Positions 4,170 to 48,270 of a DNA stretch of 51,534 nucleotides are shown one piece after another. Under the pieces are notes generated by a model. It saw nothing but the letters and a program-made list of their open reading frames with translations, was not told the origin of the DNA and did no database searches. Position numbers and translations under genes: made by a program. Origin of the DNA: a virus; IMG/VR virus record IMGVR_UViG_3300037246_000967, positions 1-51,534 of that record; one strand, given 5' to 3'. Numbering within the stretch: the stretch's first letter is position 1; each line of letters begins with the position of its first letter.

Positions 4170-4173
4170 TTGA

Positions 4174-8304: not shown

Positions 8305-8319
8305 GTTTGTTTAATCTAA

Positions 8320-13691: not shown

Positions 13692-13724
13692 GAGTGGTTC
13701 TCCTAGTTAGTTAAAGACGGGTTC

Positions 13725-16606: not shown

Positions 16607-17233
16607 CTATCTCCCGTGAACTCTATCAGCTCTGCTGTGAGCGCTCCAAATCTTCTTAAATGCTTTTTCGCTAGCAACTACTGGTTTCCTAGAACCGACA
16701 AGTTGACGGTTTAGGGTGTCCCAGGCATAATCTTCATCGAGAGCAATTCTAGGGAACCAGCAGATAGTGTAACTCCACTGCCTCTCCTCAATGCCCTCCA
16801 GATGAGCGTAAAACTCTTCCATCACGTATTCGTAGAGCCCAGGCTTGTGCTGTACTACGCGATGCGGGTTATTACTTGCCGCGGAGAGAGTGCGATTGTA
16901 GCGCGACTCCTCCATTCCTTCACGACTCCGTAGCATGAATACTACGTGGTCAATCTTCCAGTTCAGTAGGTCCGCATCCCTAAACAAGTGGATCGGCCTA
17001 TGTAGTTCGCCTGTCTTGTGGTTCGGAGTATGAAAAGGGTACTTGATCACTCTAGGAGATTGATCGTGGTAGCCCTTTTTCTTGGCATCCAAGTGGAGCT
17101 GATGGTAGCGCCACTCAAGCCCCTTCTCTACAGACAGGGCATCGAAGCCAGTCTCTTCACCTAGTTTACCGAGCAGACCTACCATGTAGGTAGTGCCGGA
17201 GCATCCAGGCCCGGACACTATGATCTTGCCCAT
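16607..17233 (-). CDS. Sulfotransferase-like P-loop protein inside the virion operon
   Basis: 208 aa using ATG at 17233, which overlaps the upstream stop (TAATG); a longer frame to 17269 lacks a ribosome site. Residues 4-14 (IIVSGPGCSGT) match the 5'-phosphosulfate-binding loop of the PAPS sulfotransferase superfamily. HVVFMLRSREGMEESR near residue 98 fits the 3'-phosphate-binding segment (LRxPxExxxS). Residues about 140-170 (FYAHLEGIEERQWSYTICWF) probably belong to the core. A related sulfotransferase-like fold binds other phosphorylated donors, so the substrate is open. It lies immediately upstream of the giant surface proteins, which makes modification of a virion or host glycan an attractive inference. 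Confidence 0.72.
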   Translation of the reverse strand: MGKIIVSGPGCSGTTYMVGLLGKLGEETGFDALSVEKGLEWRYHQLHLDAKKKGYHDQSPRVIKYPFHTPNHKTGELHRPIHLFRDADLLNWKIDHVVFMLRSREGMEESRYNRTLSAASNNPHRVVQHKPGLYEYVMEEFYAHLEGIEERQWSYTICWFPRIALDEDYAWDTLNRQLVGSRKPVVASEKAFKKIWSAHSRADRVHGR

Positions 17234-17634
17234 TACGGGCCATAGCTCAGTGTGAGTCGATCGTCCCAAATATGGACGAAGCTAGTATCGTTGCTCGCGA
17301 ACTCTACGGCTACATCGTCCGAGTTCGGAGAGTTCGTAGTAAACGTAGTCCTAGTGATGCGCCATAGAGCTTCACTTGACTCAGTGCCAGGATCAGCAAA
17401 CCCTTGATAGATAACAGAGTCGCTAGCTGTGAAGTCTACTTCTTTCTGTAGGGTTGCCACTTCAGCATCACTTCCCGGTTCCGGAGCAATTAGCCTGTCT
17501 CCCAATCCGTCACTAGGAGGAGCCGTGCCCGGCACACCTTGTCCTATAGTATACTCAAATGCGTTTCTAAGCGAAGGCTGAGTTCTTGTCCAATTATTTA
17601 GAGCTTCGCGTTGCTCATCAGTTAGGTTTGCCAT
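17233..17634 (-). CDS. Virion protein, 133 aa, unknown
   Basis: 133 aa. The N-terminus is helical and starts ANLTDEQREALNNWTRTQPS. A Pro/Gly/Asp linker (GTAPPSDGLGDRLIAPEPGSD) follows, then a beta-rich C-terminus (SDSVIYQGFADPG, SFVHIWDDRLTLSYGP). Coupled to the sulfotransferase-like gene through TAATG. It resembles short adaptor proteins of phage structural clusters; no family is recognised. Confidence 0.68.
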   Translation of the reverse strand: MANLTDEQREALNNWTRTQPSLRNAFEYTIGQGVPGTAPPSDGLGDRLIAPEPGSDAEVATLQKEVDFTASDSVIYQGFADPGTESSEALWRITRTTFTTNSPNSDDVAVEFASNDTSFVHIWDDRLTLSYGP

Positions 17635-34039: not shown

Positions 34040-34858
34040 ATGGAATTCGAAGACACATTCTACGGCAGACCGAACACGCTCATCACCTACAAGAGCCTGT
34101 TCCGCAAGCACATCAAGATGGAGGATGTCCATCCTGAGTTCGATAAGTGGAACGACGACATGACGAGGCTGATGCTAAGCTCCTGGGACAAGAAGGGGCT
34201 AGCGCGGAACACTAAGATCACTCTCATGAGGTTGCTGGGGCGGTATGTCACATTCAAGGGTGGCCCGAAGATCGACACGCAGAAGTACATCAGGAGCTTG
34301 CAGCGCAGTGAACAGCAGACCGAGGTGACGGCTCTAAACGCCACACAGGCCGCTAGACTGATGGCAGAAGCTCGCAGGCTGGAGCCCAGGTTCTACCCTG
34401 TCCTCCTTCTGGCCCTCCATGGGGGATTGAGGCGAGGGGAGATCTTTGGCCTACGGTGCTCGGACGTGGACATGCTCAAAGGGCGTGTCAAGGTGGCCCA
34501 CTCCTATGATGGGCCTACGAAGTCGGGCAGGACTCGATTCGTGCCTTTGAGCCCTGAGCTGTCGAAGGCTCTCACCTCAGCCCGGAACCTCCTCCTCAGG
34601 GACCCGGAGTCCAAGGTATTTGAACAATTCGACCCCAACCCCGTCCTGAGACGGCTGTGTGGACACGCCGGTCTGGAGAACATCCGGTTCCACGATCTGC
34701 GCCATACGTTCGCTTCCTTGGCCCTGGACAGCGGGATCAGCCCGAAACAGGTGCAGGAGTGGCTGGGGCACGCCAGCGTGGTCACGACCCTTTCGATCTA
34801 CTGGAATCTGACTAAGGAGGAGGCCAATCTGGACTTCCTTCCGGGAGTTGCACAATGA
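34040..34858 (+). CDS. int: Tyrosine recombinase / integrase
   Basis: 272 aa. The N-terminal 95 residues form the core-binding helical domain (TLITYKSLFRKHIK, ARNTKITLMRLLGRYVTF). The catalytic domain has the full set of residues: R131 in GGLRRGE, K161 in PTKSGRTR, H218 and R221 in HDLRH, H244 in WLGHAS, and Y254 in SIYW. It lacks an arm-binding N-terminal extension, so it is on the short side for phage integrases. It could integrate a prophage, resolve dimers or drive site-specific inversion. It begins 20 bases after its own promoter and overlaps the next gene by ATGA. Confidence 0.9.
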   Translation: MEFEDTFYGRPNTLITYKSLFRKHIKMEDVHPEFDKWNDDMTRLMLSSWDKKGLARNTKITLMRLLGRYVTFKGGPKIDTQKYIRSLQRSEQQTEVTALNATQAARLMAEARRLEPRFYPVLLLALHGGLRRGEIFGLRCSDVDMLKGRVKVAHSYDGPTKSGRTRFVPLSPELSKALTSARNLLLRDPESKVFEQFDPNPVLRRLCGHAGLENIRFHDLRHTFASLALDSGISPKQVQEWLGHASVVTTLSIYWNLTKEEANLDFLPGVAQ

Positions 34859-35439
34859 AGTTGAACGTAGGTAGCAGTTGCGCGCGGGGACAGTACAAGA
34901 GGGCGGAGTGGATCAACTTTGACATCAACCCGCAGGGTAGACCTAACGTGATAGGTGATGGGTTCCAGATGCCGTTCAGAGACAACACCTTTGATGAAAC
35001 CCACTCCATCCATGTGCTGGAGCATCTGCCTCGGGACAAGTGGCCTCTCATGCTGGAAGAGATGTTCCGGACGCTGAAGGAAGGTGGTACCTTCTACGTG
35101 GAGGTACCTGACTTCGAAAAACAGTGCGAGACGTACCTTGTGAATCTGAAGCACGGGACCAATGAACAGGCCCACCTCATTAGAACAGGGATCTGGGGAA
35201 AGACTGAGCGTCCTGGCATGGGTCATCAGTTCGGCTTCGATGGCGGTCTGTTGGAGCGAGCACTCCACCGGACGGGATTTAAGGGTACAGAGTTTCTCTG
35301 TAAGCAAGAGGACATGATCAGTTCTCACTGGAGATCAGGGCACATCCTGTTGTTCCGTGCTACAAAGACGGACTTCCGCCCGACGAGGAAATCATCCGAG
35401 ATGATCTTCAATGAACTTCGGGAGCATATCATCAAGTAA
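34855..35439 (+). CDS. SAM-dependent methyltransferase, class I
   Basis: 194 aa. The N-terminus MKLNVGSSCARGQYKRAEW is the glycine-rich SAM-binding strand (LNVGSS). Acidic residues follow in WINFDINPQG, DGFQMPFRDNTFDETHSIHV contains the motif II-like segment (D..PF.D..FD), and HVLEHLP is the post-motif found in the Methyltransf_11 type. The C-terminal half lacks a recognised substrate domain. Same type as the sugar or lipid methyltransferases of polysaccharide loci. Coupled to the integrase by ATGA. Target unknown. Confidence 0.8.
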   Translation: MKLNVGSSCARGQYKRAEWINFDINPQGRPNVIGDGFQMPFRDNTFDETHSIHVLEHLPRDKWPLMLEEMFRTLKEGGTFYVEVPDFEKQCETYLVNLKHGTNEQAHLIRTGIWGKTERPGMGHQFGFDGGLLERALHRTGFKGTEFLCKQEDMISSHWRSGHILLFRATKTDFRPTRKSSEMIFNELREHIIK

Positions 35440-35856: not shown

Positions 35857-36981
35857 ATGATGGCTAGAGAATTCCCCGATTGGATGATGGAGAAGTACAC
35901 CGTCAACAGCGATTCGGCCGAGGCCGAGAAAGCTGCGGAACCTGCTCCCTCTCCCAAGCAAGACCTATACCGGACGTTTCTGAATCTTGAGATGGGTGAC
36001 TCTCAGCAGGAACGTGATTACCTGAGCGGTGCTGCTCGTGAGTCTACTAAGGTCAAGACGGACCCTATCCTCTTTAGGCGTATGGCTGAGAAATACGCTA
36101 TGCCTGTCAACGAAGACCCCTCCGACATCCTGCTGAACGAGCCTGAAATTGCTGGCCCGTTCAGTTCACCTCCCGTTCGTAAGCCTACCGTTGAACTTCA
36201 GATGCAGGGCATTCCTGTGTTCACCGATCAGAATTCGCTGGAGAAGGTCGTCGCCGAGGCGCCCGCGGCGTCCTCGCCCGTATCGTTCGGTCGGACGTTC
36301 GATAGGGAGCGCCGTAAAGGTAAGGAGGAATTCTCGTATGAGGGAAAGCTGTTCAACACCCGTAAGAAGGGTGAATCTGATGATGACTGGGCCAAGGGTC
36401 TCGGCATTGTAACGCCCAAGCAGAAGAGCATTCCCCCGCTAGAGCAGAGTCTTCCTGCGGTTGGGGCCGGTCCTAAGGTCGTCGATGATACTCGCGTGAT
36501 GGACATGGTGAAGCGTCACGAGGGTACGCTGGAAATGCTACGCAAGCTTGGACACGTCGATGATCAAGGAATGCACCATGCCTACGAGGACAAGAAAGGC
36601 AATCTCACTATCGGCTACGGCCACCTTCTCGACCCCGGTGAAAAGATGCGGAGCATCACCGAGGCTGAAGCTCAGGCTCTGTTCGAAAAGGACTACGCTG
36701 AGCACAAGGCGGCGGCTGAACAGATCCCGGGGTACGGCAAGGCTGGTCCCGCGCGTCAGGCGGCGCTGATTGACCTGACCTTCAACATGGGTCCGGATTG
36801 GCACAAGGAGTTCGATGGCTTCAGCGCTGCGTTCCTGGCTGGAGACTACAACTTGGCTGCGGACGAGCTGATGTATACGGACCCGACTGCGGCCAAGCCG
36901 AAGTACAGTGATTGGTTCAAAGACGTTGAACTGCGCGGACCGGAAATCGTTGAGATGATGCGAAGTGGAGCGGTGAACTGA
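35857..36981 (+). CDS. GH24 lysozyme (endolysin) with long N-terminal extension
   Basis: 374 aa. Residues about 213-374 are a T4-type lysozyme domain: KRHEGT (catalytic E222), AYEDKKGNLTIGYGHLLDPG (D245, T251), then QAALIDLTFNMGPD and a helical end. The family hydrolyses the beta-1,4 bond between MurNAc and GlcNAc. The N-terminal 210 residues are unusual, acidic and Pro-rich with no signal peptide or membrane segment, so export would need the holin. The extension might anchor it in the virion. A holin-like gene follows by TGATG overlap. Ribosome site CTGGAGAC lies before ATG. Confidence 0.87.
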   Translation: MMAREFPDWMMEKYTVNSDSAEAEKAAEPAPSPKQDLYRTFLNLEMGDSQQERDYLSGAARESTKVKTDPILFRRMAEKYAMPVNEDPSDILLNEPEIAGPFSSPPVRKPTVELQMQGIPVFTDQNSLEKVVAEAPAASSPVSFGRTFDRERRKGKEEFSYEGKLFNTRKKGESDDDWAKGLGIVTPKQKSIPPLEQSLPAVGAGPKVVDDTRVMDMVKRHEGTLEMLRKLGHVDDQGMHHAYEDKKGNLTIGYGHLLDPGEKMRSITEAEAQALFEKDYAEHKAAAEQIPGYGKAGPARQAALIDLTFNMGPDWHKEFDGFSAAFLAGDYNLAADELMYTDPTAAKPKYSDWFKDVELRGPEIVEMMRSGAVN

Positions 36982-37262: not shown

Positions 37263-37452
37263 GCTAGCAGCACTGATGCACGCAGCGACCCCTGAACCTC
37301 GTAGGACAGAGGATCCCGACAAACGACTGGAGGAGGCGCTTGAGAAAGCGTTGAAGGCAACGACACCCGAACGACCCGGTTGTCCGTGGGATAAATTGGA
37401 GGAGGAGCATGAGCGACGAGAACCCGGAATCTGGATCCCCGAAGGAGACTAG
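37252..37452 (+). CDS. Small charged protein between holin and terminase, start uncertain
   Basis: Up to 66 aa if the TTG at 37252 is used; an ATG at 37276 gives 58 aa. Neither has a strong ribosome site. The protein is Glu/Lys/Pro-rich with one helical segment (DKRLEEALEKALKATTPERP) and ends in EPGIWIPEGD. It overlaps the terminase gene by 44 bases. The dense coding layout and absence of another gene in 37263-37408 support it. No family is recognised; a spanin is unlikely because there is no membrane segment. Confidence 0.55.
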   Translation: MSDKLAALMHAATPEPRRTEDPDKRLEEALEKALKATTPERPGCPWDKLEEEHERREPGIWIPEGD

Positions 37453-39625
37453 GACCAAGCGCATTTCCCCCCGGGAGATGCACTTCGCCAAGTTGATGGC
37501 CGATACTGATATGGGTGGTGTAGCAGCCGCCCGTATTGCTTTTGGCTGGAGGTGTGAGCCTAACTCCAAGGAGAACGACAAGGCTCGTAATCTCGCCCGT
37601 GCGCCCCGCATCCAGGCTGAGGTTGACAGGCTTCAAGCGAAGGATCTCCATGAGCAGGAGGCCAAGGAGTCCCTACGGGTTGACTTCGGCGAGATGCACA
37701 AGGGAGACCTCCGAGAGTACGCCTACAAGGTTCTGGAGAATCTCCGCGATAATCCCAAGGGCAAGGCAGCAGACCGCTTCAATGCGATCAAGATGCTCAA
37801 GAAGCTGCATGACCCTGGCAAAGACATCAACCTCATCTATAAGTGGATTGATCTGGCTTGGCGGTATCAGACTGCCCATTGCCCTTCCTGTCACAACTCG
37901 TTCTCTCTGACCGACATTCCCAATCCGAAGCTAGAAGAGTGGCGTGAGCGCACCGGAGCCGATACAGCTCCCGGGAAGATGCCCGACCGCTTCACTCGTC
38001 AGATGGAAATCATCAAGCGTTGCGATCCGCGACGTACCCCCCACGAAGGACAGATAAAGATCTTGGCCGCTCCTGAGCGGCATGTGGTCGGCGAAGGTGC
38101 TGCTCGTGCAGGTAAGTCTTACCTGCTGGCAGTCATCGCCGCAATGGGGATCTGTTTGCCTGGAGTCGAGGTCTGGATTCTATCTGAGACTTACGACCGG
38201 GCAAGCAAGGAAGTAGAGTACCTCAAGAACTTCCTGAACGCGATGTTCTTCCCGTACTTCCGTCAGATGATCAACATCATTCAGGACAAGAAGACCGGTG
38301 AGACTATCATCACCACTAAGTGGGGCTCTGAGGTCAGGGTAAAGTCGGCGAAGGCCAAGGGCTCTATTACTGGTCACGCACTGGAATACGCCCTGTGCGC
38401 GGAGCCCGGCTGGCTACCCGCAGACATCTACGAAGAACTTCGTGCTCGTATGTCAGAGCGCCTAGGCCGGATCATCGCATTGGGTACTCCTAAGGGACTT
38501 GGCGGTTTCATCGGTCGTATGACCAATATGCACGGTCGTGACCCAAAGACCGGCAAGATGATCCGTTGGAAGCGTGAGGATCGTTTGATGTCGAACGGGT
38601 GCCCCTGGAACGTCTCCATGCTAATCACCCGACTGGAACCCGGTGACAACCCTGAGTACGTGAAGTCGGAGCTAGATGCTGCACGTATGGAGCTTACGGA
38701 CGAAGAGTACGCCTCGGAGTTCGAAGGTATCGGTATGTCCAAGGAGGGTGCCAAGTTCGGGCTAGTGCGTGAGGATCATCTACGCGAGATTGACCCTGGG
38801 TTCTTTGAGAAGGCTATGTGGATCCTCGGAATCGACCAGGGACCGAAGAACTTCGGTGCTGCGCTAGTCGGCTACGATGGGACCGACATCGTTACTGTCT
38901 GGGAATACTTCAACATGGACGAGCGGACCACCATGAAGCGTAACCTGATCCGCCTGCGGTCACGAGTACCCAGGTGGATTGAGGCTCTCGGTGGGGACCC
39001 TGACCGTTGGACTATCACCATCACTGACCAAGATCCGATGCTGGAGCCTGTGTTCGCTGAGATGGAGGACGAGGGCCAGCCGTGGCCTACCGACATCAGC
39101 AAGCGTCACCGTAACATGGCAAAGCTTCAGGAGAACTGGCGTCGTGAGAATCAGGAATACATCAACAATATGGCCCGCCACAACCACATGTGGTTCCATC
39201 TGTACGATGTACCGGTCCCGGAAGAGGATGAGTCCTCAGGTGCTTACCTGCTCCACGATCAGGTTCGACAGACCATGGACGTTGCCCCTGACCCTGAGCG
39301 TGAGTCCAAGGCTGACCAGAACAAGGGTTGGCAGGTATCTGACCCCTTCCGAGGAGATCACGTTCTCGATGCTTGGTACTTCGCTGTATGGTTGGTCTGC
39401 TCCCAGCAGGTAAACGTACCGAAGCAGAAGCTTACTCGTGCCGCTAGCAATGACCCGTGGGCATACGAGAAGCAGCAGTTCGAGGCGCAGATGGCTGCTC
39501 GCGAGGCTAAGGAGTTGGGTCTGAAGCCTAGACCGAAGGATGCCCAGGAGGCATGGAATAAGCTACTGCGTGGTGGGCGCGGAGGTGGAGGCCACTTCGG
39601 CGGCCACTACGGTAACGAAGCATGA
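37409..39625 (+). CDS. terL: Terminase large subunit with small-subunit-like N-terminus
   Basis: 738 aa. Residues about 20-140 (MHFAKLMADTDMGGVAAAR, NLARAPRIQAEVDRLQ) read like a terminase small-subunit HTH domain. The ATPase follows: Walker A GEGAARAGKS (228-237), a Walker B strand LEYALCAEPGW with Glu332 but Ala in place of the usual Asp, and motif III ALGTPKG (357-363). The nuclease domain has WILGIDQGPKNFG (D476), TDQDP (540-543) and RGDHVLDAWYF (D650, D654). A CPSC pair lies at 158-161. It cuts and pumps DNA into the head through the portal. Ribosome site AGGAGGAGC is strong. Confidence 0.88.
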   Translation: MSDENPESGSPKETRTKRISPREMHFAKLMADTDMGGVAAARIAFGWRCEPNSKENDKARNLARAPRIQAEVDRLQAKDLHEQEAKESLRVDFGEMHKGDLREYAYKVLENLRDNPKGKAADRFNAIKMLKKLHDPGKDINLIYKWIDLAWRYQTAHCPSCHNSFSLTDIPNPKLEEWRERTGADTAPGKMPDRFTRQMEIIKRCDPRRTPHEGQIKILAAPERHVVGEGAARAGKSYLLAVIAAMGICLPGVEVWILSETYDRASKEVEYLKNFLNAMFFPYFRQMINIIQDKKTGETIITTKWGSEVRVKSAKAKGSITGHALEYALCAEPGWLPADIYEELRARMSERLGRIIALGTPKGLGGFIGRMTNMHGRDPKTGKMIRWKREDRLMSNGCPWNVSMLITRLEPGDNPEYVKSELDAARMELTDEEYASEFEGIGMSKEGAKFGLVREDHLREIDPGFFEKAMWILGIDQGPKNFGAALVGYDGTDIVTVWEYFNMDERTTMKRNLIRLRSRVPRWIEALGGDPDRWTITITDQDPMLEPVFAEMEDEGQPWPTDISKRHRNMAKLQENWRRENQEYINNMARHNHMWFHLYDVPVPEEDESSGAYLLHDQVRQTMDVAPDPERESKADQNKGWQVSDPFRGDHVLDAWYFAVWLVCSQQVNVPKQKLTRAASNDPWAYEKQQFEAQMAAREAKELGLKPRPKDAQEAWNKLLRGGRGGGGHFGGHYGNEA

Positions 39626-40365
39626 ACAACTGGGTGACATTCATTGGGGAAGGTAGAAGCGGGCATACGCTAGCTTCGGCGATCATAGCCTCACATCCGA
39701 ATGCACGAGTAGCGCATGAACTGAAAACTATATCCGCGTGGGATCGCACAAGAGTCTCCAGGGAGGAAGTGATCGAGTCAATTTTCGCATCAGGCATCGG
39801 TAAGGAACGCCGAGATATGGGCTTCGAAGGTATCAACACGCACGAAGAACCGCTGATGTTGATAGGTGATAAGTGTGGGTGGGACCTTAACGGATACGCC
39901 CGTAAACATGATGTTGAGAAGACCTGGGAGTTGCTTGATGACTTCTCAGACAACATGAAGATGTCTGTGAAGACTGTCCTGACCTTGAGGGATCCTATCC
40001 AGAACATCTCGGCTTGGGTAGCCAGTCCGAAGTACCAGAGGCTTTGGGGTTCCACCTCTGGACGTAGAATTTGGAGTAAGTCGTGTAGACGATATATACG
40101 ATTCCATAACCGTGCAGCGAGATTGCTAGAAGGTATGGATAACATATTCGTGCTCAGAAACGAAGAACTAATCGCAACCCCCTCCGATACAATCGACGCC
40201 TTGAGGAAGTTCTTGGAGCTACCTGAGGATGTCGAGTGGTTGAAGCACACTTCGTCTAAGGTATTCTCAAAGCCTAGACGTAGAGAGCTTGAGTGGCCCG
40301 AGAACTATTTGACTTTTGCTCAAAACTACATTAAGCTAAGTCCGCTTCACGAGTATTACAGATGA
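39622..40365 (+). CDS. Sulfotransferase family protein
   Basis: 247 aa. VTFIGEGRSGHTLASAII (residues 5-22) is the phosphosulfate-binding loop of sulfotransferase-type enzymes (xRSGTT). VLTLRDPIQNISAWVASPKY is the 3'-phosphate-binding segment (RDPxxxxxS). FVLRNEELIATPSDTIDALR plus a C-terminal helix match the Sulfotransfer_1/3 core, where a loop with E(E/D)L is common. Uses PAPS as sulfate donor if active. Starts by ATGA overlap with terL and ends by ATGA overlap with the rhamnosyltransferase-like gene, so it is part of the late lysis-packaging operon. Confidence 0.8.
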   Translation: MNNWVTFIGEGRSGHTLASAIIASHPNARVAHELKTISAWDRTRVSREEVIESIFASGIGKERRDMGFEGINTHEEPLMLIGDKCGWDLNGYARKHDVEKTWELLDDFSDNMKMSVKTVLTLRDPIQNISAWVASPKYQRLWGSTSGRRIWSKSCRRYIRFHNRAARLLEGMDNIFVLRNEELIATPSDTIDALRKFLELPEDVEWLKHTSSKVFSKPRRRELEWPENYLTFAQNYIKLSPLHEYYR

Positions 40366-41042
40366 TCATCTACTCTCGGTTTAACCCACGGCAATATGTA
40401 CTAGACGATAATCGCGTAGGTAAGCGCGTTGACAAGCGCAGGGCTGCTAGGCGTATGGACGGGTATAGATTCAATGATGAGTGGCTACAGAACAGGCTTG
40501 ACTTGTTCGACAAGTTCACCTATCCTTCTATAGAGGCTCAGACAGATCAGAAGTTCCGATGGATCGGCATCGTACATAAAGACTCCCCCTCATGGTTCTT
40601 CAAGGAACTAGAGAAGTACCCTCGCATGGAAGTGCATAAGACTGAGTTTGATATTGATGTAGCTGTCAGGGGAGAGGATAGCGTCAATCTCGATACCGAT
40701 GATGCTTTATCCAGGGACTTCATTGAGGAGGCCCGTAGTATCGACTTCGAAGGGGAGATCCTATTCCAGCGCGGTCTCAGGTATAGGATATTGACGGGTA
40801 ACTGGATAGGGGCTCATGCCTTCTACGGGCACTTCAACGTAGTGAAGCACCCTGAAATGACCGTGCTGGACTTTTCACACGGTAGGAGTAAGAGGATAGA
40901 AACGAAGGTAATAGATAACCGCCGCCCTATGTGGCTGGAAATCATTCACGAAGAAAACATCGCCAACAGAATGAGGTCAGCTTCGAAGGATAAGAATCTA
41001 GGAGAACCCTACGCTGCCCAATTCTTCGAGATCAGGCCATGA
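40362..41042 (+). CDS. Rhamnosyltransferase-like glycosyltransferase
   Basis: 226 aa. IIYSRFNPRQY and WLQNRLDLFDKFTYPSIEAQ, then FRWIGIVHKDSPSWFFKELE, and the metal-binding SVNLDTDDALSRDFI (D111, D113, D114) follow the order of the putative rhamnosyl transferase family (Rhamno_transf). The C-terminus contains GLRYRILTGNWIGAHAFYG and a MWLEIIHEENI end. The likely reaction is transfer of a sugar from a nucleotide-sugar donor. Coupled to the sulfotransferase gene by ATGA. Acceptor unknown. Confidence 0.8.
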   Translation: MIIYSRFNPRQYVLDDNRVGKRVDKRRAARRMDGYRFNDEWLQNRLDLFDKFTYPSIEAQTDQKFRWIGIVHKDSPSWFFKELEKYPRMEVHKTEFDIDVAVRGEDSVNLDTDDALSRDFIEEARSIDFEGEILFQRGLRYRILTGNWIGAHAFYGHFNVVKHPEMTVLDFSHGRSKRIETKVIDNRRPMWLEIIHEENIANRMRSASKDKNLGEPYAAQFFEIRP

Positions 41043-41046
41043 GATA

Positions 41047-41196
41047 ATGCCCGACCGAGTTGTTATATTCGTCAGCAGCTCGCCACCCTCACATGAGGAA
41101 GTGATACCCTATCTACGAGACGGATACAGAGTTCTCTGGAAGACCAGACACAGCAGCGTAGAGATTCACTGGGGCAACCTAAGCAAATTTGTCTAA
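41047..41196 (+). CDS. Short protein at convergent junction, 49 aa
   Basis: A 49-codon gene starting four bases after the stop of the rhamnosyltransferase-like gene and ending at 41196, overlapping the end of the convergent GT2 gene by four bases. The sequence starts PDRVVIFVSSSPPSHEEVIP and ends HWGNLSKFV. No ribosome site is clear, so it may depend on coupling. It resembles the beginning of a larger alpha/beta enzyme and could be a truncated remnant. Confidence 0.5.
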   Translation: MPDRVVIFVSSSPPSHEEVIPYLRDGYRVLWKTRHSSVEIHWGNLSKFV

Positions 41197-42101
41197 AGGT
41201 CCCGTCTGGGCGGTAACTCGATCATCTTAGAGAGCGCCTCCATGCCCCTGAAGAAAGACCGGTTGAGAGGCCGGTTAGTGTTCGCCGGGGAGTTATAGAA
41301 GTCCACGAAGGGCTCCAGGCTACTGGTATCGAAGTACGGGAAGATACGATAGTGGCCGTAGAAATTATTCATGCTTTCACAGGTTGACTTGTAGCTACTC
41401 AGATCGTACTTGTACTTCTTGCTTATCTTACGTGAACCACTGGTATAGCGGTCCATAGCGGCTGCTGGCGTCCTGCGACCCTGGTGCTCAAGATACGGCA
41501 TATCTAGCGACAGCTCCCCATCCATATCCCTCCACTTGTACTGCACCTTCTGTATCCCCTGAGGCCAGGGGTACTTAGCGCTATCGTAGCTCAACTGAGG
41601 CGTGATCTTGTACGCGATGATCATTCGCTCGTCAAACTTGAACCATCGCGCTAGAGTTCTGATGTGGCTGTAGTGCGGGTACGGATCATTCGCCTCAGTC
41701 CACGGGTCCATCCGGTGCCGTAGGAAGTCGAGCTGCACACCTTCCACTGCTTCAAACCCACCAGTTCTAGCATCTTCCACTATCTGCCTGGGCGTACTGT
41801 TCAGGAAGAACCGGTCACCCATGGTGATGACCACCCACACCTCCTCGTTCGGGAAGTCCTTCTTGATCTGGTTGAAGAGGTGACGGTAGTTCCCGCGGTG
41901 GCGATCCATGCGGTCAGGCTGCTGCTGGGTCGCGTAGTGCTCGTTCTTCACTAGGCTCCACGTATCGTCCCGTGAGGCGTCTTCGTAAACGTATAGGTGA
42001 TCCACTAGGGATCTGACGTGGGGGAGCACCTGAGGCAGAAGGTCGGCCTCGTCACGCACACACATCAGACCTACTATCTTAAATTGTTGGGACATAGCCA
42101 T
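41193..42101 (-). CDS. Glycosyltransferase family 2-like protein
   Basis: 302 aa. FKIVGLMCVRDEADLLPQVL and VDHLYVYEDASRDDTWSLVK match the N-terminal part of GT2-type transferases (V/I..VRDE...L..L, then DDxSxDxT). VWVVITMGDRFFLNS stands where the DxD-containing strand would be, but the motif is degenerate (GDRF). The C-terminal 150 residues (EWRDMDGE-like and YLEHQGRR segments) are not assigned. ATG at 42101 (or 42095) overlaps the upstream sulfotransferase-like gene by about 23 bases. Probably adds a sugar to a glycan; may be catalytically unusual. Confidence 0.75.
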   Translation of the reverse strand: MAMSQQFKIVGLMCVRDEADLLPQVLPHVRSLVDHLYVYEDASRDDTWSLVKNEHYATQQQPDRMDRHRGNYRHLFNQIKKDFPNEEVWVVITMGDRFFLNSTPRQIVEDARTGGFEAVEGVQLDFLRHRMDPWTEANDPYPHYSHIRTLARWFKFDERMIIAYKITPQLSYDSAKYPWPQGIQKVQYKWRDMDGELSLDMPYLEHQGRRTPAAAMDRYTSGSRKISKKYKYDLSSYKSTCESMNNFYGHYRIFPYFDTSSLEPFVDFYNSPANTNRPLNRSFFRGMEALSKMIELPPRRDL

Positions 42102-42657
42102 GCCGCTTCACGGACCGCTTGAGGCGCTTAAGGTGTTTGGGACTGATAGACTTCTGGTGCGCCACATTGAACTCCTCCTGGGTGAAGTCTTCGGGGAGTA
42201 CCACCTTGACCCTATCGTACATGTACTCGGGTGAGAGAACGCTCTCCGGGCAGCGAACTATAGTGAAATCGTGACCACGCTCAATCAACTGGATCATGCC
42301 GCTAGAGAGGGTGCCCTTGTACATCTCCAACGACTCCGCACGAGTAATCTTTCTGCGACCCATGTAGCTCTCAATCTGCAACTCCAAGGGCTGAGTCGCT
42401 AGGAAAATGTGCTCGATCTCCCAGTCGTGCCGATCGATGTGTTTGTTCAGATTAACCATGAACCCGCCTAGGTGCTTGATGACCCGAGGCATCTCGATAG
42501 TCTTCGGATCCACCCCATGCTCGATAAGCTTACGCACGGGGCCGTGCTGCATGTAGGAGTTGTAGCCTCCGTTGTCGAGACCACAGTTCTCCAGGGTTCT
42601 GACGATGAAGCCGGAACCACAGCCACCCACACCCATGACGAGTATCTTCTTGCTCAC
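42079..42657 (-). CDS. Sulfotransferase-like P-loop protein, GTG start
   Basis: 192 aa. ILVMGVGGCGSGFIVRTLEN is a phosphate-binding loop of sulfotransferase type (GxxxxGSxFI). HDWEIEHIFLATQPLELQIE sits where the second phosphate-binding segment would lie, and the last third is helical and basic (HLKRLKRSVKRHGYVPTI). The start is GTG at 42657, overlapping the upstream stop (GTGA). It is shorter than typical sulfotransferases (250-300 aa) but similar in size to the 208-aa protein at 16607. Substrate unknown. Confidence 0.7.
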   Translation of the reverse strand: MSKKILVMGVGGCGSGFIVRTLENCGLDNGGYNSYMQHGPVRKLIEHGVDPKTIEMPRVIKHLGGFMVNLNKHIDRHDWEIEHIFLATQPLELQIESYMGRRKITRAESLEMYKGTLSSGMIQLIERGHDFTIVRCPESVLSPEYMYDRVKVVLPEDFTQEEFNVAHQKSISPKHLKRLKRSVKRHGYVPTI

Positions 42658-43196
42658 GGTAGGATCCGAGCGAAGGGCTTGTCTTCGTCAAAGCCGAAGA
42701 TCTCAAACTTGGAAGCCACGATAGCTTGTGCGTACATAATACCAGTCCTCATGTCGTAGGGACGGTGGAAGTCATCGATGATGACGGGGACCGTCTGGTC
42801 GAAGATGGAGCGGTTGAACAGGAACCCAGGACGACGGGAGGGACTTTCAGGCCCATCCACAATGATCGCGTCGTACTGCTTCCCCGCCAGCTTGGTGCGG
42901 AGCAGCTCTGCATCGTACCATTGCTTGTAGAGCGGAAACCGCTTGGAAATCGATCCAGGGATGTTGAGCTGGTCTACAACGGGAACCTCGATCAGCTCCG
43001 ACACACCCTGATGCCAGTGGGGGTTGTTCTCAATCGAGATGACCTTGAACTTCTCCGCAATAGGGATCGTGCCGAAGCCAGTACCCAGCTCAAGTACAGT
43101 GGAGCCCTCAGGGATAACCTCCAGCAGCTTCTCGATAACAGTCTTGGAGATCTGCCCTTGTACTCGGTTTGACATTCTAGCGTAGGAATCGCTCAT
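42654..43196 (-). CDS. Class I methyltransferase in glycan cluster
   Basis: 180 aa. STVLELGTGFGTIPIAEKF is the SAM-binding motif I. KVISIENNPHWHQG gives the acidic motif II, YDAIIVDGPESPSRRPGFLF gives motif III/post-I (DGP), and QTVPVIIDDFHRP follows. No target-recognition domain is seen. ATG at 43196 overlaps the upstream gene by 20 bases; an alternative ATG at 43175 would avoid the overlap. One of three methyltransferases alternating with GT-A transferases, so an O-methylated sugar is the likely product. Confidence 0.78.
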   Translation of the reverse strand: MSDSYARMSNRVQGQISKTVIEKLLEVIPEGSTVLELGTGFGTIPIAEKFKVISIENNPHWHQGVSELIEVPVVDQLNIPGSISKRFPLYKQWYDAELLRTKLAGKQYDAIIVDGPESPSRRPGFLFNRSIFDQTVPVIIDDFHRPYDMRTGIMYAQAIVASKFEIFGFDEDKPFARILP

Positions 43197-43887
43197 GGTA
43201 GTCTCCTAGTCTGTGCATACGGTGGCCCTTGAAATGTATCACTTTGGTTTTCCCGGGGCCAAGCTCGTAGTGGGGAGACCTGATGCACCAGAAGTTGTTG
43301 TAGATCTCACACGGGAAGAACTTCACCTTGTACCCACGGACCATTCGGGTCTCCCATGTCAAGTCCCAAAGAGGCTCTTTGATTTCCGGCAACAGAATCT
43401 CGTTCTCAAGGGTCTGCTGGTCAGAGTAGTTCGGAGGCTTGGTAAGGGCATCGAGGTCCGGGACGGGAGGCATGGCGTCGATCCACTCCTCCACGAATCC
43501 GAGGCCACTCTGTCTAGCAAAGAAGACACCAGCGTTGATGTAGGTGGTCTTCTTGTTGGTCCTCTTCGGACGCACAGTGATACCCACGTCCCAGGGCTCA
43601 GCGTTGAACACCTCGTCAATAGGCTTAATCAGGGTGGCGTCCCCATCTATCCAGGCCACAGGGCCGTCATACGTGGCAATGGCCTCCCGGAGCAACTCAG
43701 GCTTCATCGCGCTCTTCACGCGGCGAAACTTGGACTGGACGCGGGGATCGTCAACCTTGGTACCGAAGCCCAGCCCACCAAGGTCATACACCTTGAAGTC
43801 GTATCCGTACTTCTTGCAGTTCGCCTCGTTGTAGCGGATAGTGTCCGCAAAGGCGTAGTTCCCTGAGCCGGCTGTAACTACACGCAT
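43177..43887 (-). CDS. GT-A glycosyltransferase with DxD motif
   Basis: 236 aa. The N-terminal strand RVVTAGSGNYAFADTIRYN is followed by YGYDFKVYDLGG, FRRVKSAMKPELLREAI and AWIDGDATLIKPIDEVF (DGD, metal and nucleotide binding). TTYINAGVFFARQSGLGF and KTKVIHFKGHRMHR close the fold, as in GT8/nucleotide-diphosphosugar transferases. A close relative is two genes upstream (44465). It transfers a hexose from a nucleotide-sugar; acceptor unknown. ATG overlaps the upstream stop by ten bases. Confidence 0.8.
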   Translation of the reverse strand: MRVVTAGSGNYAFADTIRYNEANCKKYGYDFKVYDLGGLGFGTKVDDPRVQSKFRRVKSAMKPELLREAIATYDGPVAWIDGDATLIKPIDEVFNAEPWDVGITVRPKRTNKKTTYINAGVFFARQSGLGFVEEWIDAMPPVPDLDALTKPPNYSDQQTLENEILLPEIKEPLWDLTWETRMVRGYKVKFFPCEIYNNFWCIRSPHYELGPGKTKVIHFKGHRMHRLGDYHERFLR

Positions 43888-44468
43888 AGCTCTTCGATGA
43901 CCTCATACGAGAGAAGCATGTCTCGACTGTTCAGGCGTCTCTGCTTTCCAGCCCATCTGACAAACCTCCGGTCACGACCGTCATTGAATCCAAGCACTAG
44001 GGATCCGCCCTCATTCAAGAGATTGTCATACACATCTCTCAGAAAGAATCGCCACTCAGCCTCGCCCCAGGTTCGGTCAAATGCCATCCGATAAGCAGTT
44101 ACCACGTCGTATTGCCGGGTAAGGTTCAACAGTGTGAATGCCTCCACTGTGAGTTCGTGCTTAGAAACATCGAGCAGTGCAGTGACGGTATCATACAACT
44201 CGTCGGGCATGTCAACAGCCTCGATCACAGCGGCCTTGTTATGGTGGAGCCCGTACAGAGGAAAGTAGCCAAAGCCAGTCCCAATGTCTAGGACTGTAGA
44301 CTCAGGCGTAACAACTCCCTCCAGCTCAGCCCATCGTTGCTTAACGACTTTCAACCAAATGTGAGTGTTGAAGTATTTAGTGCTACTCTTTTTGGTAATG
44401 AGGTGGCTCTTTTTCAGATCGCTCCAGCCGGGGATGGACCCAATCATCTTTAGAAGATCGGCAGTCAT
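43878..44468 (-). CDS. Class I methyltransferase in glycan cluster
   Basis: 196 aa using ATG at 44468, fixed by ATGA overlap with the upstream gene; the longer frame to 44495 has no support. ESTVLDIGTGFGYFPLYGL is motif I, AAVIEAVDMPDELYDTVTAL gives motif II, TRQYDVVTAYRMAFDR gives the next strand, and NLLNEGGSLVLGFNDG is the post-motif. Probably methylates a sugar made by the flanking GT-A enzymes; substrate not shown by the sequence. Confidence 0.77.
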   Translation of the reverse strand: MTADLLKMIGSIPGWSDLKKSHLITKKSSTKYFNTHIWLKVVKQRWAELEGVVTPESTVLDIGTGFGYFPLYGLHHNKAAVIEAVDMPDELYDTVTALLDVSKHELTVEAFTLLNLTRQYDVVTAYRMAFDRTWGEAEWRFFLRDVYDNLLNEGGSLVLGFNDGRDRRFVRWAGKQRRLNSRDMLLSYEVIEELCV

Positions 44469-45034
44469 AGCACTCCGTCCCTGTACGCCGCCCACTTCTT
44501 CTGGAGCGCACCCTTGAAGTGTATTACCTTCTCTGTCTCTTTCGGAAGCCGCATATCCGAGATTGGATCTACAGCCACGTAGACATACGGATCAAGCAGC
44601 TTCAGCTCGAACTCGGTGGGGCTATCCATCACGACGTGCAGCGCGGCCTGATCTGACTTGTTGCCAGGAAGGGCATTCGACCAGTCAAGTAGGAAGTCCA
44701 GCCCAGCTCGTGTCTGGCGAACGAAGACGAATCCAGAGTAGTAGAGGGACCCGTACCTGCGGGATTGCGTGCCGGGGTGCTTTGTGCAGAAGGCAATATC
44801 ATGATCACCTACGATCACCTCTGGGATAGGCTGGAACAGCATAGAGTCTGCGTCCATCCACAGCACCCACGGATTATCCTCTAGGGTGGTGATCATGGCG
44901 CTGACCTTCTCCAAGTTGGGTCTTCGCGAGGTAAAGTCGAATTTGGTAAAGGGATAGTACGAACTGGCATGACGCTCACAGTACGAGAGCATATCTTGAA
45001 ACTTGAAATTGTCATTGGCCCCGGAGATGATCAT
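44465..45034 (-). CDS. GT-A glycosyltransferase with DAD motif
   Basis: 189 aa. The start at 45034 is set by ATGA overlap; a longer frame to 45082 lies within the upstream gene. NDNFKFQDMLSYCERHASSY, PNLEKVSAMITTLEDNPWVL and WMDADSMLFQPIPEV (DAD) make up the nucleotide-sugar site. YYSGFVFVRQTRAGLDFL and TEKVIHFKGALQKKW match the C-terminal part of the 43177 protein, so the two are paralogues. It is a second sugar transferase of the cluster. Confidence 0.78.
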   Translation of the reverse strand: MIISGANDNFKFQDMLSYCERHASSYYPFTKFDFTSRRPNLEKVSAMITTLEDNPWVLWMDADSMLFQPIPEVIVGDHDIAFCTKHPGTQSRRYGSLYYSGFVFVRQTRAGLDFLLDWSNALPGNKSDQAALHVVMDSPTEFELKLLDPYVYVAVDPISDMRLPKETEKVIHFKGALQKKWAAYRDGVL

Positions 45035-45660
45035 GTGCGACTCCACACCGTAATGGACTGGACGGCATGAATCTGCTCCCAACCGAACAGGTGCAACTCA
45101 TGAGTCTTAGCGACTCCCGGTAGATGTGAGTCATGGAAGGCCACGGCACCGTCATCGGCAACTAGGTCCTTCCAGGCAAACCAGTCTGTCATACAGCCGT
45201 CGTAGCTATGGTCGGCGTCGATGAATACGAAGCGGACAGGGCGGTCCAGATCCTTAGGGACAACAGTGGTCTCGGAGGAGATGATCCTCACGTAGTCGCT
45301 CAAACCTCGTGAATCCATCACTTCCTGAACCTCAGCAATACGCTCAACCTCCATCGCTGCCTTCTTAGTGCTCTCCGGCCTCGGAAGATTACCGCGGCGA
45401 CGAGGTTCAAGATTGTCTTTACTCCAGCGTGAGCTGAGTGCGCGACGATCAAAGGTATCAAGAGTCCAGACTTGGGTGTCCTTCAGATTCGCCTTTCGGA
45501 AACTATCCGCCATGCACACAGCAGAGCGCCCGCGGAAAGTGCCAAGATCAATGTAGATCCCCTGTCCCAGCTCGGCACCGATGTTGTGCAAGTAATTAGC
45601 TTCGCCACGGCCAATCAGCCCGTTAACGCCGTGCATTATCTTCGGATAGGTATCAGCCAT
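45031..45660 (-). CDS. Class I methyltransferase (Methyltransf_24-like)
   Basis: 209 aa. GQGIYIDLGTFRGRSAVCMA is motif I, TQVWTLDTFDRRAL gives motif II, VRFVFIDADHSYDGCMTDWF (D..H.Y..C..D) and DLVADDGAVAFHDSHLPGVA are the hallmarks of the Methyltransf_24 family, known from sugar and antibiotic O-methyltransferases of polysaccharide loci. ATG overlaps the deacetylase stop by eight bases. Probably an O-methyltransferase. Confidence 0.82.
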   Translation of the reverse strand: MADTYPKIMHGVNGLIGRGEANYLHNIGAELGQGIYIDLGTFRGRSAVCMADSFRKANLKDTQVWTLDTFDRRALSSRWSKDNLEPRRRGNLPRPESTKKAAMEVERIAEVQEVMDSRGLSDYVRIISSETTVVPKDLDRPVRFVFIDADHSYDGCMTDWFAWKDLVADDGAVAFHDSHLPGVAKTHELHLFGWEQIHAVQSITVWSRT

Positions 45661-46189
45661 TTGTTACGATCTCCAAGGCTGTTTGCAGCCTGTTAACACC
45701 CTGCCACCAGTGGATGAAAATCTCAACATCCTGGCCGCGGAACTTGTCAGGGTCTTTTCTGATGTGGTGAGGTATCACCGTGCCGTCCACCCCTACCAGC
45801 TTCATAGAGTGCTTCTCAGCTAGTGTGCGGAGTAGAGGTGAGTCTGCTCCCCAGGGGGTGTAGAAGATGGAAGGAGGCTGACCGAAGGTGTTGTTGAACC
45901 AATCCACACAACGCCCTAGGTCAGTATCAGCTTCCTGCTCGGTCATCTTTCCGTAGTCCACATGCCTCCAGCCATGAAGCTGAGGTGCCATACGCCCGAG
46001 AGCCATCTCTGCCTTGATGTACTTAATCGTCCCCGGGAAGACCTGAATGTCACCACACAGGATAGAGGGAACATGAGTAGCACCGTACTTGATGATAATC
46101 TCGTGGACCTTAACGAAGCGGGCTTCAGGGTCTGCATGACTACTGGAGTGAACCAGCACATCATCATCCCTTACAGTGACTACGCCCAC
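45653..46189 (-). CDS. Polysaccharide deacetylase (NodB-like), GTG start
   Basis: 178 aa, close to the size of a bare NodB domain. Seen: VVTVRDDDVL (the D-D pair near the N-terminus), LHGWRHVDYG (HxxxH, H72 and H76), FYTPWGADSP (the RPPxG-like motif 3), and EIFIHWWQGV (H160, motif 5). This is the carbohydrate esterase 4 arrangement, which removes N- or O-acetyl groups from GlcNAc-type polymers with a divalent metal. It starts with GTG at 46189 in a TAGTG overlap. It could edit the glycan built by the neighbours or a host surface polymer. Confidence 0.78.
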   Translation of the reverse strand: MGVVTVRDDDVLVHSSSHADPEARFVKVHEIIIKYGATHVPSILCGDIQVFPGTIKYIKAEMALGRMAPQLHGWRHVDYGKMTEQEADTDLGRCVDWFNNTFGQPPSIFYTPWGADSPLLRTLAEKHSMKLVGVDGTVIPHHIRKDPDKFRGQDVEIFIHWWQGVNRLQTALEIVTNG

Positions 46190-46596
46190 TACATAGGCTC
46201 CGAGTCAGCAATACCCTTCTGCAAGAAATCATGTTGCGGGACGGACGTGTTGAACTTCTGGGCGTTCAGCAAAATTTCCACGCCCATGTGGATCGAACGA
46301 ATCAGCTCATCACCCTCGCCGGTACGGAAGGGCATGGAACCCGAGATGTCCGTGCGCTCAAGCGCGAATACCTGCTTGGGATAGAACCGGATCACGAACG
46401 GCGTGTTCTTGATGTGATCCGGGACGTTATCAAGCTCGATCATGGAAAGAGCCATAGCGATCAGCTTCGTAGCCCGATCAGCCTCGGCGGGTGTGAAGTC
46501 AAGCGAAAACACTGGCTGACCCTCCGCAACCTGCCGCTTGATCTGGATACGACCCTGATGCGCGCCTACGTGGAAGCTCAGCTCCTGACCCGCCAT
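46189..46596 (-). CDS. Hypothetical protein, 135 aa
   Basis: 135 aa with beta-rich N-terminal part (ELSFHVGAHQGRIQIKRQVA, QPVFSLDFTPAEADRATKLI), a helix (IAMALSMIELDNVPDHIKNT) and a beta C-terminal part (FVIRFYPKQVFALERTDIS). No Cys. Overlaps the deacetylase start and the upstream stop by one base each. No family is recognised. It may be a structural or regulatory companion of the 46596 protein. Confidence 0.68.
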   Translation of the reverse strand: MAGQELSFHVGAHQGRIQIKRQVAEGQPVFSLDFTPAEADRATKLIAMALSMIELDNVPDHIKNTPFVIRFYPKQVFALERTDISGSMPFRTGEGDELIRSIHMGVEILLNAQKFNTSVPQHDFLQKGIADSEPM

Positions 46597-47255
46597 TACT
46601 CGATCCCTGCGATGAACTGCTGGATCGCCTCGACCGGCTCACTCTGAGCTTCGGGGGAACCATCAGCCTGCGCGTTGAAGGCAGTGTGACGGGCATTGAC
46701 ATCCGAGTTCTGCTCAAGGAAGAACTCCATGGCAGCAACGGACGGGAACTCACGCGGAGGATCCATCACGAACACAGTCCGTGCCGGGTCCATCTGCTGT
46801 CGGGAGTTCCGATCATCAGTGTCACCAACAACGTCTTGGAACTTGGCCGCAGCTTCCTTCAGCACACCGATCTTGCGTCCCAGCTCCTCGTAACCCATCT
46901 GACGGAGAGTCTCTTCAAGAGCCTCCGGATTCGGGGCAACGCCGGAAGCGGCACGGCGATCAGTGATATTCCGGACAGCCGAGTCGTACTGGGCCTTCTT
47001 GGCGGCGTGCGCGCGGCGCAGTGCCTCAAGAGCCTGATTGTCATACGGGCGATCCGAGTCCAGCAGGAACAGGCCATGGTAGTCGAGAACTGACTTCACG
47101 TCAGCCGAACCGGGCTTGCCAGGACGGAAGTCGTCCATCTGCTCCATGGTCAGCTCAGTGGAATCGAACGCTTCAACCTTGATGTTGACGCCGCGATCCC
47201 AGGGCAGCTTGACCGGAAAGGGGGTAGGGTTACACAGTTTCGAGGAAAAGGCCAT
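46596..47255 (-). CDS. Hypothetical protein, 219 aa
   Basis: 219 aa. The N-terminal 60 residues are beta-like (LCNPTPFPVKLPWDRGVNI, EAFDSTELTMEQMDDFRPG). A helical Ala/Arg/Glu-rich middle (ALEALRRAHAAKKAQYDSAV, ALEETLRQMGYEELGRKIGV) follows, and a Gln/Pro/Asp-rich end. No Cys-based or enzyme motif. It lies between the HTH regulator and the 135-aa gene, with TAATG coupling. Function unknown. Confidence 0.68.
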   Translation of the reverse strand: MAFSSKLCNPTPFPVKLPWDRGVNIKVEAFDSTELTMEQMDDFRPGKPGSADVKSVLDYHGLFLLDSDRPYDNQALEALRRAHAAKKAQYDSAVRNITDRRAASGVAPNPEALEETLRQMGYEELGRKIGVLKEAAAKFQDVVGDTDDRNSRQQMDPARTVFVMDPPREFPSVAAMEFFLEQNSDVNARHTAFNAQADGSPEAQSEPVEAIQQFIAGIE

Positions 47256-47527
47256 TAAAAGGCACCTCCTTCATACGTCTGGGGAGCCTCTTCCGTGGTC
47301 GCCTCCTTGGCGGGATCGGTAGCGAGGATCCGGGGGTCATGGGTCTCGGACTTCTTCCGACGACCACGGGCGCGCATAGTCTCGCCCATTTCCTTGAGGA
47401 TGTTGCGAACCGTACCCGGGGACACCCCATGCACGTCGCCGATCTGCCGTAGGGTCGCACCGTTGCGATACGCCTCACGGACCTGATCCTGGCAGTTTGC
47501 CAGCTTGTTCTTCAATCGAGTAGACAT
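47255..47527 (-). CDS. Small HTH DNA-binding protein, likely regulator
   Basis: 90 aa. Residues about 20-48 (YRNGATLRQIGDVHGVSPGT, then VRNILKEMGE) form a helix-turn-helix of the resolvase/Hin-like or homeodomain-like type (TLRQIGDxxGVSPGTVRNIL). A basic stretch MRARGRRKKS follows. First gene of the glycan-cluster transcription unit, with promoter 47568 and a 6-bp inverted repeat in its leader. Ribosome site TAGGAGGAGTAAC is strong. Autoregulation or regulation of the glycan cluster is inferred. A terminase small subunit is an alternative, but terL already carries such a domain. Confidence 0.75.
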   Translation of the reverse strand: MSTRLKNKLANCQDQVREAYRNGATLRQIGDVHGVSPGTVRNILKEMGETMRARGRRKKSETHDPRILATDPAKEATTEEAPQTYEGGAF

Positions 47528-47539
47528 GTTACTCCTCCT

Positions 47540-47558
47540 ACTATCATTAAAGGATAGT
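47540..47558 (-). promoter_or_regulatory. Inverted repeat in HTH gene leader (operator/hairpin candidate)
   Basis: ACTATC / GATAGT, perfect 6-bp arms with a seven-base centre, lies between the -10 box and the ribosome site, about 10 bases downstream of TATAAT. It could be an operator for the HTH protein or an mRNA leader hairpin. Confidence 0.5.
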
Positions 47559-47567
47559 ATCTTCCTA

Positions 47568-47596
47568 ATTATACCGTTTAATTATTTGTTTAGGCA
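47568..47596 (-). promoter_or_regulatory. Phage promoter element, copy 8 (HTH and glycan cluster)
   Basis: On the minus strand: TGCCTA, 17-base spacer ending in AAACGG, TATAAT (47568-47573), then TAGGAAG. It sits two bases after the stop of the 47599 gene and drives the HTH gene and the genes down to 41193. Confidence 0.85.
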
Positions 47597-47598
47597 AC

Positions 47599-48270
47599 TT
47601 ATACGCAAAACTGCCCGTTATCCCACTCTACGACCTTGGTGTCATATCGGCCTAGGGTAACCACAGGGGTGTCCTGAACCGCATCATAGACCTTCCGATT
47701 AACCTGACTCACAGTCACAATCAGCTTGGGCCTCGTGGCGTAGATCACGTTCCGGAGCCCAGGGGAGTCTAGGTGCTCGTAGAGCACTAGGAGGTCCGTA
47801 GGCCCTGAGGAGCACGCTCGCTCCACATCCCGCCTTGTATAGTGACGGTGGGACTTCTTTCCTCGCTCCCCGTTGAAGGTGGCCTCAGAGTAGGCCCGAC
47901 CGATGCCAGTAACTCGAATGCCCTCAGGCTCATCGAAGCCAATGACGGTACGGTAGCCTTGAGACAGCCAGTGAACATTGTTCAAGATCTCAGTGTTGTT
48001 CGCTGACTGGCGTTGATTGAGCCACCTGTTGTCGTCATGGGAGCCTGCCACTGTGAGCACCGGAATGTTGATCGGACTGGAGTCCATACCCACATACCGC
48101 TTAGCGAAGTCCGTGGCAGCGTACTTCTTGGAGGCTCGATCCATGCGCTGTGTGTCAGGCCAGATGCCGAAGTCCCCCGCACACACGATCCAATGGGCCT
48201 CCTCCTTCTTCGCATCTCTGAAGAGGAGGTTCAGGTAGCCTTCAACCGGTCCTGCTAGTAGGATTTTCAT
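47599..48270 (-). CDS. Metallophosphoesterase-fold protein resembling Dbr1, ligands degenerate
   Basis: 223 aa. The layout follows the lariat debranching enzyme Dbr1: MKILLAGPVEGYLNLLF (Dbr1 has AGCCHGELDKIY), HWIVCAGDFG (D33), KKYAATDFAKRYVG, NIPVLTVAGSHDDNRWL (Dbr1 GGNHEASN), GIRVTGIG, then DLLVLYEHLDSPG where Dbr1 has FLSHDWP, and PKLIVTVSQVN where Dbr1 has FSAHLH. The usual metal ligands Cys/His, Asn and the final His pair are missing or changed; D33, H78 and H166 remain. So it is a metallophosphoesterase fold, perhaps with altered chemistry or non-catalytic. The comparison is from memory of Dbr1. Starts by ATGA overlap. Confidence 0.7.
   Translation of the reverse strand: MKILLAGPVEGYLNLLFRDAKKEEAHWIVCAGDFGIWPDTQRMDRASKKYAATDFAKRYVGMDSSPINIPVLTVAGSHDDNRWLNQRQSANNTEILNNVHWLSQGYRTVIGFDEPEGIRVTGIGRAYSEATFNGERGKKSHRHYTRRDVERACSSGPTDLLVLYEHLDSPGLRNVIYATRPKLIVTVSQVNRKVYDAVQDTPVVTLGRYDTKVVEWDNGQFCV

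Follow-up and report, generated by a model that had tools for sequence, protein, structure and literature searches.

A putative glycan-decoration island at a hypervariable terminase junction in an uncultivated phage lineage

The window analyzed here is a virus record of 51,534 bases (IMGVR_UViG_3300037246_000967), a fragment of a podovirus-like phage. Its interval 39622-46189 holds ten enzyme genes (g1-g10): two of sulfotransferase type, four glycosyltransferases (GTs), three methyltransferases and one NodB/CE4 deacetylase. We give an even chance to the reading in which these genes form a hypervariable cassette that decorates a glycan made by a phage-encoded pathway in the cytoplasm, most likely on virion protein. 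A preliminary description of the same DNA had named a phage glycan-modification island with methyltransferases interleaved with GTs, which was borne out by Pfam, paralogy and fold evidence. The enzyme classes and the use of both strands were also confirmed, and the count of nine enzymes was corrected to ten (2 + 4 + 3 + 1).

The open reading frames (ORFs) of the island are genuine. The region contains 12 ORFs of at least 170 amino acids (aa), namely the ten genes and two antisense shadows, against 0.15 expected by chance and a maximum of 2 in 200 first-order Markov simulations; this density is far beyond chance. The ten genes were assigned as follows.

g1, 39622-40365, plus strand: predicted Sulfotransfer_3-type sulfotransferase (Pfam PF13469, 1.5e-7, above the curated cut-off)
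g2, 40362-41042, plus strand: predicted Rhamno_transf (PF11316) glycosyltransferase (Pfam 5.1e-16, above cut-off), LDTDD motif intact
g3, 41193-42101, minus strand: predicted GT2-type glycosyltransferase (Glyco_tranf_2_4, 4.9e-8, above cut-off), metal motif atypical (MGDRF)
g4, 42079-42657, minus strand: P-loop sulfotransferase-like protein, GTG start, no accepted Pfam match
g5, 42654-43196, minus strand: class I S-adenosylmethionine (SAM)-dependent methyltransferase-like protein, no Pfam match, homologue in L055 (36%)
g6, 43177-43887, minus strand: putative glycosyltransferase of GT-A-fold type, paralogue of g8, no accepted Pfam match
g7, 43878-44468, minus strand: putative class I methyltransferase (Methyltransf_18, 7e-4, below cut-off)
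g8, 44465-45034, minus strand: predicted Nucleotid_trans (PF03407) glycosyltransferase (Pfam 5.9e-6, above cut-off)
g9, 45031-45660, minus strand: Methyltransf_24 sugar O-methyltransferase-like protein (Pfam 5.9e-17, above cut-off)
g10, 45653-46189, minus strand: NodB/CE4-type polysaccharide deacetylase, GTG start (Polysacc_deac_1, 2.7e-7, above cut-off)

Relatives of the window were retrieved with two proteins: G001 (87 kb) was found by a terminase scan, and 16 further contigs by a head-protein scan. Four phages of one uncultivated lineage (the window, G001, G015 and G017) carried sugar-enzyme genes at the junction between the terminase and a conserved right border. On the terminase side, the G001 island had Methyltransf_24 and Rhamno_transf genes, and on the opposite side two epimerases, a deacetylase, sulfotransferase-like proteins, GT17, GT2 and a methyltransferase. 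In G015, a sulfotransferase-like protein and a deacetylase were located terminase-side, with Methyltransf_24, GT2 and an epimerase opposite. The G017 island (GT17, two methyltransferases and an epimerase) was recognised via the conserved right border, and the terminase of this phage was not identified. A fifth phage, G014, passed from the terminase to the border block with no enzymes between.

The deacetylase, sulfotransferase-like, Methyltransf_24 and GT2 families recurred in the three terminase-linked islands, and content, order and strand of the sets varied among the relatives, same-family enzymes switching side and strand. The emphasis of the preliminary description on the exact gene order was therefore misplaced, since order, strand and content are shuffled. 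The terminase was 73% and 76% identical to that of the window in the two closest relatives (G001 and G015), the portal 76-81%, and the head protein 82-93% across the lineage. Island proteins were at most 48% identical to those of relatives, and g6, g7 and g8 had no counterpart. As judged from these comparisons, the locus at this junction is hypervariable and draws on a recurring repertoire of enzymes.

Two candidates at this junction were discarded. The G015 frame 3974-4546, proposed as a g1-type sulfotransferase, failed the leave-one-out profile test and was not used. The 708-aa junction gene of G017, considered as a terminase that would leave the site empty, was rejected because its Pfam match is an epimerase with an intein, so the site is occupied. 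This sugar-nucleotide epimerase gene (L036:1973-4099) is split by a LAGLIDADG intein (Intein_splicing 1e-13), and the terminase gene of G014 (L041:8704-11895) holds a LAGLIDADG homing-endonuclease insertion.

A second set of sugar genes was found in all six larger relatives (6/6), where conserved GT genes, 35-73% identical, occupied a second convergent junction at the end of the tail unit. This module comprised four GT genes where the contig was long enough, one of them a GT2-GT1 fusion of ~1,040 aa. In G001 the tail-side GT module including the fusion lies at L008:9653-17972, together with a peptide deformylase and an HNH/AP2 protein. Since the tail-side module is conserved and the islands are shuffled, a conserved backbone pathway with an exchangeable decorating set is suggested by the gene comparisons.

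The individual enzymes were compared with relatives and solved structures. The loop of g1 reads SGHT, against the SGTT of the 5'-phosphosulfate-binding (5' PSB) motif in sulfotransferases dependent on 3'-phosphoadenosine 5'-phosphosulfate (PAPS), and a homologue (34%) lies at 60-446 of G001. The g4 protein is a member of a phage P-loop family (leave-one-out hidden Markov model (HMM) 7.8e-18 against relatives); its own loop is CGSG, and the loops of the relatives are mostly SGTT. Its best fold matches, the sulfotransferases TPST1, Teg12 and StaL, were weak, with a template-modelling (TM) score of about 0.5. Among the GTs, g2 shared 48% identity with G001 7885-8664, which follows the terminase-side methyltransferase there, and g3 had homologues in the G015 and G001 islands (24-25%, leave-one-out HMM 5e-17). 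The g6 and g8 proteins were 27% identical (1e-7), with D81xD83, SDQ and H218FKG motifs common to both.

The model of g5 had a predicted local distance difference test (pLDDT) value of 70, and its PDB fold matches were nearly all methyltransferases, MycE at the top. The nearest solved structure of g9 was 6g7d/6g80/6h40 (5.7e-8, labelled 'Methyltransferase domain protein'); we take 6g7d to be MeT1, which methylates sugars (an O-methyltransferase) and belongs to a gene cluster of mycobacteria. Homologues of g9 were found in G001, G015 and G014, and the grouping of G001 1222-1947 with g9 failed the leave-one-out profile test. The class I methyltransferase assignments, made by sequence and fold, leave the substrate unfixed. 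In g10, the Asp-Asp, His-x3-His and C-terminal His residues are present (D9, D10, H72, H76 and H160, invariant in five phage homologues), and a profile search with it retrieved CE4 structures. An NCBIfam search of the island proteins gave none above cut-off. No island protein had a membrane segment (highest 19-residue Kyte-Doolittle mean 1.31, the rest below 1.0), which means that a flippase, polymerase or membrane GT is absent from the island.

The island is formed by two convergent runs, in which g1-g2 extend the rightward lysis-terminase unit and g3-g10 end a leftward unit that starts near 47.5 kb with a helix-turn-helix gene. The borders are as follows.

Large terminase, 37409-39625, plus strand: left border, belonging to the rightward run extended by g1-g2 (phrog_2 terminase, 1.7e-24)
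Right border block, 46189-48270, minus strand: genes at 46189, 46596, 47255 (helix-turn-helix) and 47599 (metallophosphoesterase) leading into g10-g3
Best promoter-like site, 47568-47597, minus strand: TTGCCT-18-TATAAT, within a 71-base gap preceding the leftward unit

The Pfam matches of the right border were HTH_58 and Metallophos, and the border genes 46596, 47255 and 47599 had homologues at the same junction in G017 and G014. Promoter- and terminator-like sites in the region were not more frequent than expected by chance. Because 4-base ATGA overlaps couple g1 to the terminase stop codon and g2 to g1, expression of g1-g2 late in infection is suggested by the layout. The ATG at 45034 was preferred over the TTG at 45082 as the g8 start, since it gives an ATGA overlap with g9 and aligns with the g6 start; likewise the ATG at 44468 was preferred over the GTG at 44495 for g7, which gives a 4-base ATGA overlap with g8. 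The tight co-expression previously read from the dense overlaps is plausible for each unit, but the island consists of two opposing units with operon-like continuation on both sides. A 49-codon ORF (41047-41196, plus strand) occupies the gap between g2 and g3.

Beyond the range originally assigned to the island, two more enzyme genes were identified.

Methyltransf_11 protein, 34855-35439, plus strand: in the lysis-terminase unit (Pfam 2.5e-9)
Second g4-family sulfotransferase-like gene, 16607-17269, minus strand: among structural genes (leave-one-out HMM 1e-19)

The G017 homologue of the first sits inside the G017 island. The second lies 5 bases ahead of two Ser/Thr-rich proteins of ~960-980 aa (S+T 20%). 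These proteins (979 and 958 aa, window 10752-16601, about 20% Ser+Thr) share a weakly similar domain, had no family match and were not at that place in G001 and G015; they are possibly adhesin or fibre proteins.

In the pathway that we favour, the conserved tail-side GTs would assemble a backbone from host nucleotide sugars, and the island GTs g2, g3, g6 and g8 would extend or branch the chain, possibly with rhamnose. The g5, g7 and g9 proteins would O-methylate sugars, g1 and g4 would sulfate them with host PAPS, and g10 would de-N-acetylate a hexosamine. The window island would depend on host precursors, because it holds no sugar-nucleotide enzyme; the G001, G015 and G017 islands carry epimerases. 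The acceptor would most likely be a virion protein, late in infection, and swift exchange of decorating genes would alter the particle surface and leave the capsid untouched. The virion is favoured as the target because the enzymes are soluble and coupled to the terminase, because the GT module of the lineage lies by tail genes, and because a g4-family gene stands among structural genes beside the two Ser/Thr-rich proteins, which are missing from G001 and G015. The three targets listed in the preliminary description are not equal: the virion is preferred, the host envelope is its chief rival, and phage DNA is disfavoured for want of a hydroxymethylase homologue in the window and six relatives.

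A wider version of this reading is put forward tentatively. The lineage may itself synthesise a complex glycan for its virions in the cytoplasm of the bacterium, with a conserved backbone and O-methyl, sulfate, deacetyl and branching changes exchangeable from phage to phage. It would be a counterpart of the chlorovirus glycans, and junction swapping would provide surface variation.

Related systems have been described. Cluster O mycobacteriophages modify their capsid and tail tube by means of three GT genes in tandem, together with an O-methyltransferase gene (Freeman et al. 2023, as cited in PMC11600133). Those cassettes resemble the island, with its clustered four GTs and three methyltransferases, in setting tandem GTs beside an O-methyltransferase in a phage genome, proposed to act on virion proteins. 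In contrast, the island has ten enzymes including sulfotransferase-type and deacetylase members, lies at a terminase junction of an unrelated uncultivated lineage and is known from genes alone. According to PMC5408694, chloroviruses have a common capsid glycan core with virus-specific decorations and a methylated rhamnose cap, and A064R is a viral enzyme without a signal peptide or membrane span. The predicted N-glycan pathway of PBCV-1 likewise pairs conserved core GTs with variable decorations and has a GT-A/methyltransferase protein tied to methylated rhamnose (PMC5408694). This core-plus-decoration pattern was found here at the gene level, as the conserved GT module of six relatives against the shuffled islands, and was not seen in the cut contig of the window. 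However, the likeness is drawn at the level of description, and chloroviruses are eukaryotic algal viruses with scattered genes, and the available text of PMC5408694 describes no deacetylase or sulfotransferase for the glycan.

The mycobacterial methylmannose polysaccharide cluster (MeT1/pMeT3/ManT), for which alternate mannosylation and methylation were proposed (PMC9883506), also combines sugar methyltransferases with a GT in a proposed alternation of methylation and chain growth. Unlike the island, it is cellular, has four genes and makes a free polysaccharide (PMC9883506), and only g9 is similar to it.

Phage glycan cassettes are thus already known, and what would set this one apart is that it includes enzymes of sulfotransferase type and a deacetylase, that its contents are shuffled while the junction stays fixed, and that its partner module is conserved. 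A DNA search of cultured phages gave no match, and a tblastn search of them with the ten joined island proteins gave one weak record only. Nothing close to the window and no record with the island gene order was found among cultured phages, in agreement with the earlier statement that this order is not a known one. Pattern scans of viral contigs with g6 alone and with the g6/g8 alignment found no relatives. No phage combining sulfotransferase, deacetylase and GT genes emerged from a search of the literature, most subscription journals being outside its coverage.

Several points weigh against a virion glycan. Its structure, acceptor and expression are deduced here from genes alone, and the backbone GT module is known from relatives only, as the window fragment ends before that region. 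The sulfotransferase calls for g1 and g4 rely on variant P-loops (SGHT, CGSG) and on weak fold matches at a TM of about 0.5. Envelope polysaccharides are the usual substrates of NodB deacetylases and of rhamnosyltransferases. Furthermore, the tyrosine integrase of the window keeps its catalytic residues and is conserved in five lineage members, which points to a temperate phage, for which lysogenic conversion would be a sensible role.

Remodelling of the host envelope is accordingly the chief rival, possible though rather unlikely. During lysogeny or infection, methyl groups, sulfate, extra sugars or deacetylation would be placed on a host lipid-linked polysaccharide, which would exclude superinfecting phages or change the surface of the cell. 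Both the NodB deacetylase and the rhamnosyltransferase are typical of envelope polysaccharide pathways, and the integrase and the position at operon ends, a frequent site of temperate-phage cargo genes, also fit this explanation; cytoplasmic GTs could use host lipid-linked intermediates. However, the island has no membrane protein, flippase, polymerase, ligase or initiating transferase, g1-g2 are linked to the late terminase unit, and the conserved GT module of the lineage adjoins tail genes. Among 84,980 species genomes, pattern scans for the terminase and the head protein also found no prophage relative.

That these are unconnected accessory genes accumulated at a recombination hot spot, with separate targets (tRNA, small molecules, host polysaccharide) and no common pathway, is unlikely. 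The shuffling of content and order among relatives and the class I methyltransferase assignments, which do not set a substrate, would be consistent with it. But the deacetylase, sulfotransferase-like, Methyltransf_24 and GT2 genes recur jointly in the three terminase-linked islands, the relatives' islands also bring sugar-nucleotide epimerases, and translational overlaps run throughout the cluster.

Glycosylation or other hypermodification of phage DNA against restriction is very improbable. Phage GTs can modify hydroxymethylated pyrimidines, as established for T4 (literature noted in PMC12619734), yet no PF00303 thymidylate-synthase/hydroxymethylase homologue was found in the window and six relatives (largest 83 and 87 kb), with positive control genomes, although the records may be fragments. 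The deacetylase, the rhamnosyltransferase and several O-methyltransferases also have no role in known base modification. A Tet/JBP search gave no control positive and hence has no bearing on this reading. Serotype conversion of the gtr type is disfavoured: the gtrABC cassettes of temperate phages are likewise phage-borne GT genes altering surface sugars, but they consist of a membrane flippase (GtrA) and membrane-anchored GtrB/GtrC, and the island has no membrane protein.

If the virion reading is correct, phages would build and diversify sugar coats with labour split between a conserved backbone and swappable decorations, which bears on how they avoid host or environmental recognition. The islands would also supply, as a natural series, methyltransferases, sulfotransferases and deacetylases that act on sugars. 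The interval from the terminase to the helix-turn-helix and phosphoesterase genes would give a fixed genomic address for sampling this variation in metagenomes.

Elsewhere in the window, a P22-type portal was located at 20433-22655, the major head protein at 5913-7124, the integrase at 34040-34858 and a lysozyme-type lysin at 35857-36981. The head protein is 92-93% identical in the closest relatives, against 73-81% for terminase and portal, and was maybe exchanged or strongly constrained. The GC content of the island was slightly lower (0.527 vs 0.553, p=0.004) and GC3 did not differ (p=0.45), so base composition would be weak evidence for recent transfer. In several relatives, a second NodB-type deacetylase was observed in the early region near replication genes (L010:4016-4669, L055:2173-2808, L056:7875-8519 and L036:10955-11557). 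In G001, L009:15224-17932 encodes a 902-aa protein that joins an N-terminal uracil-DNA-glycosylase domain to a family A DNA polymerase.

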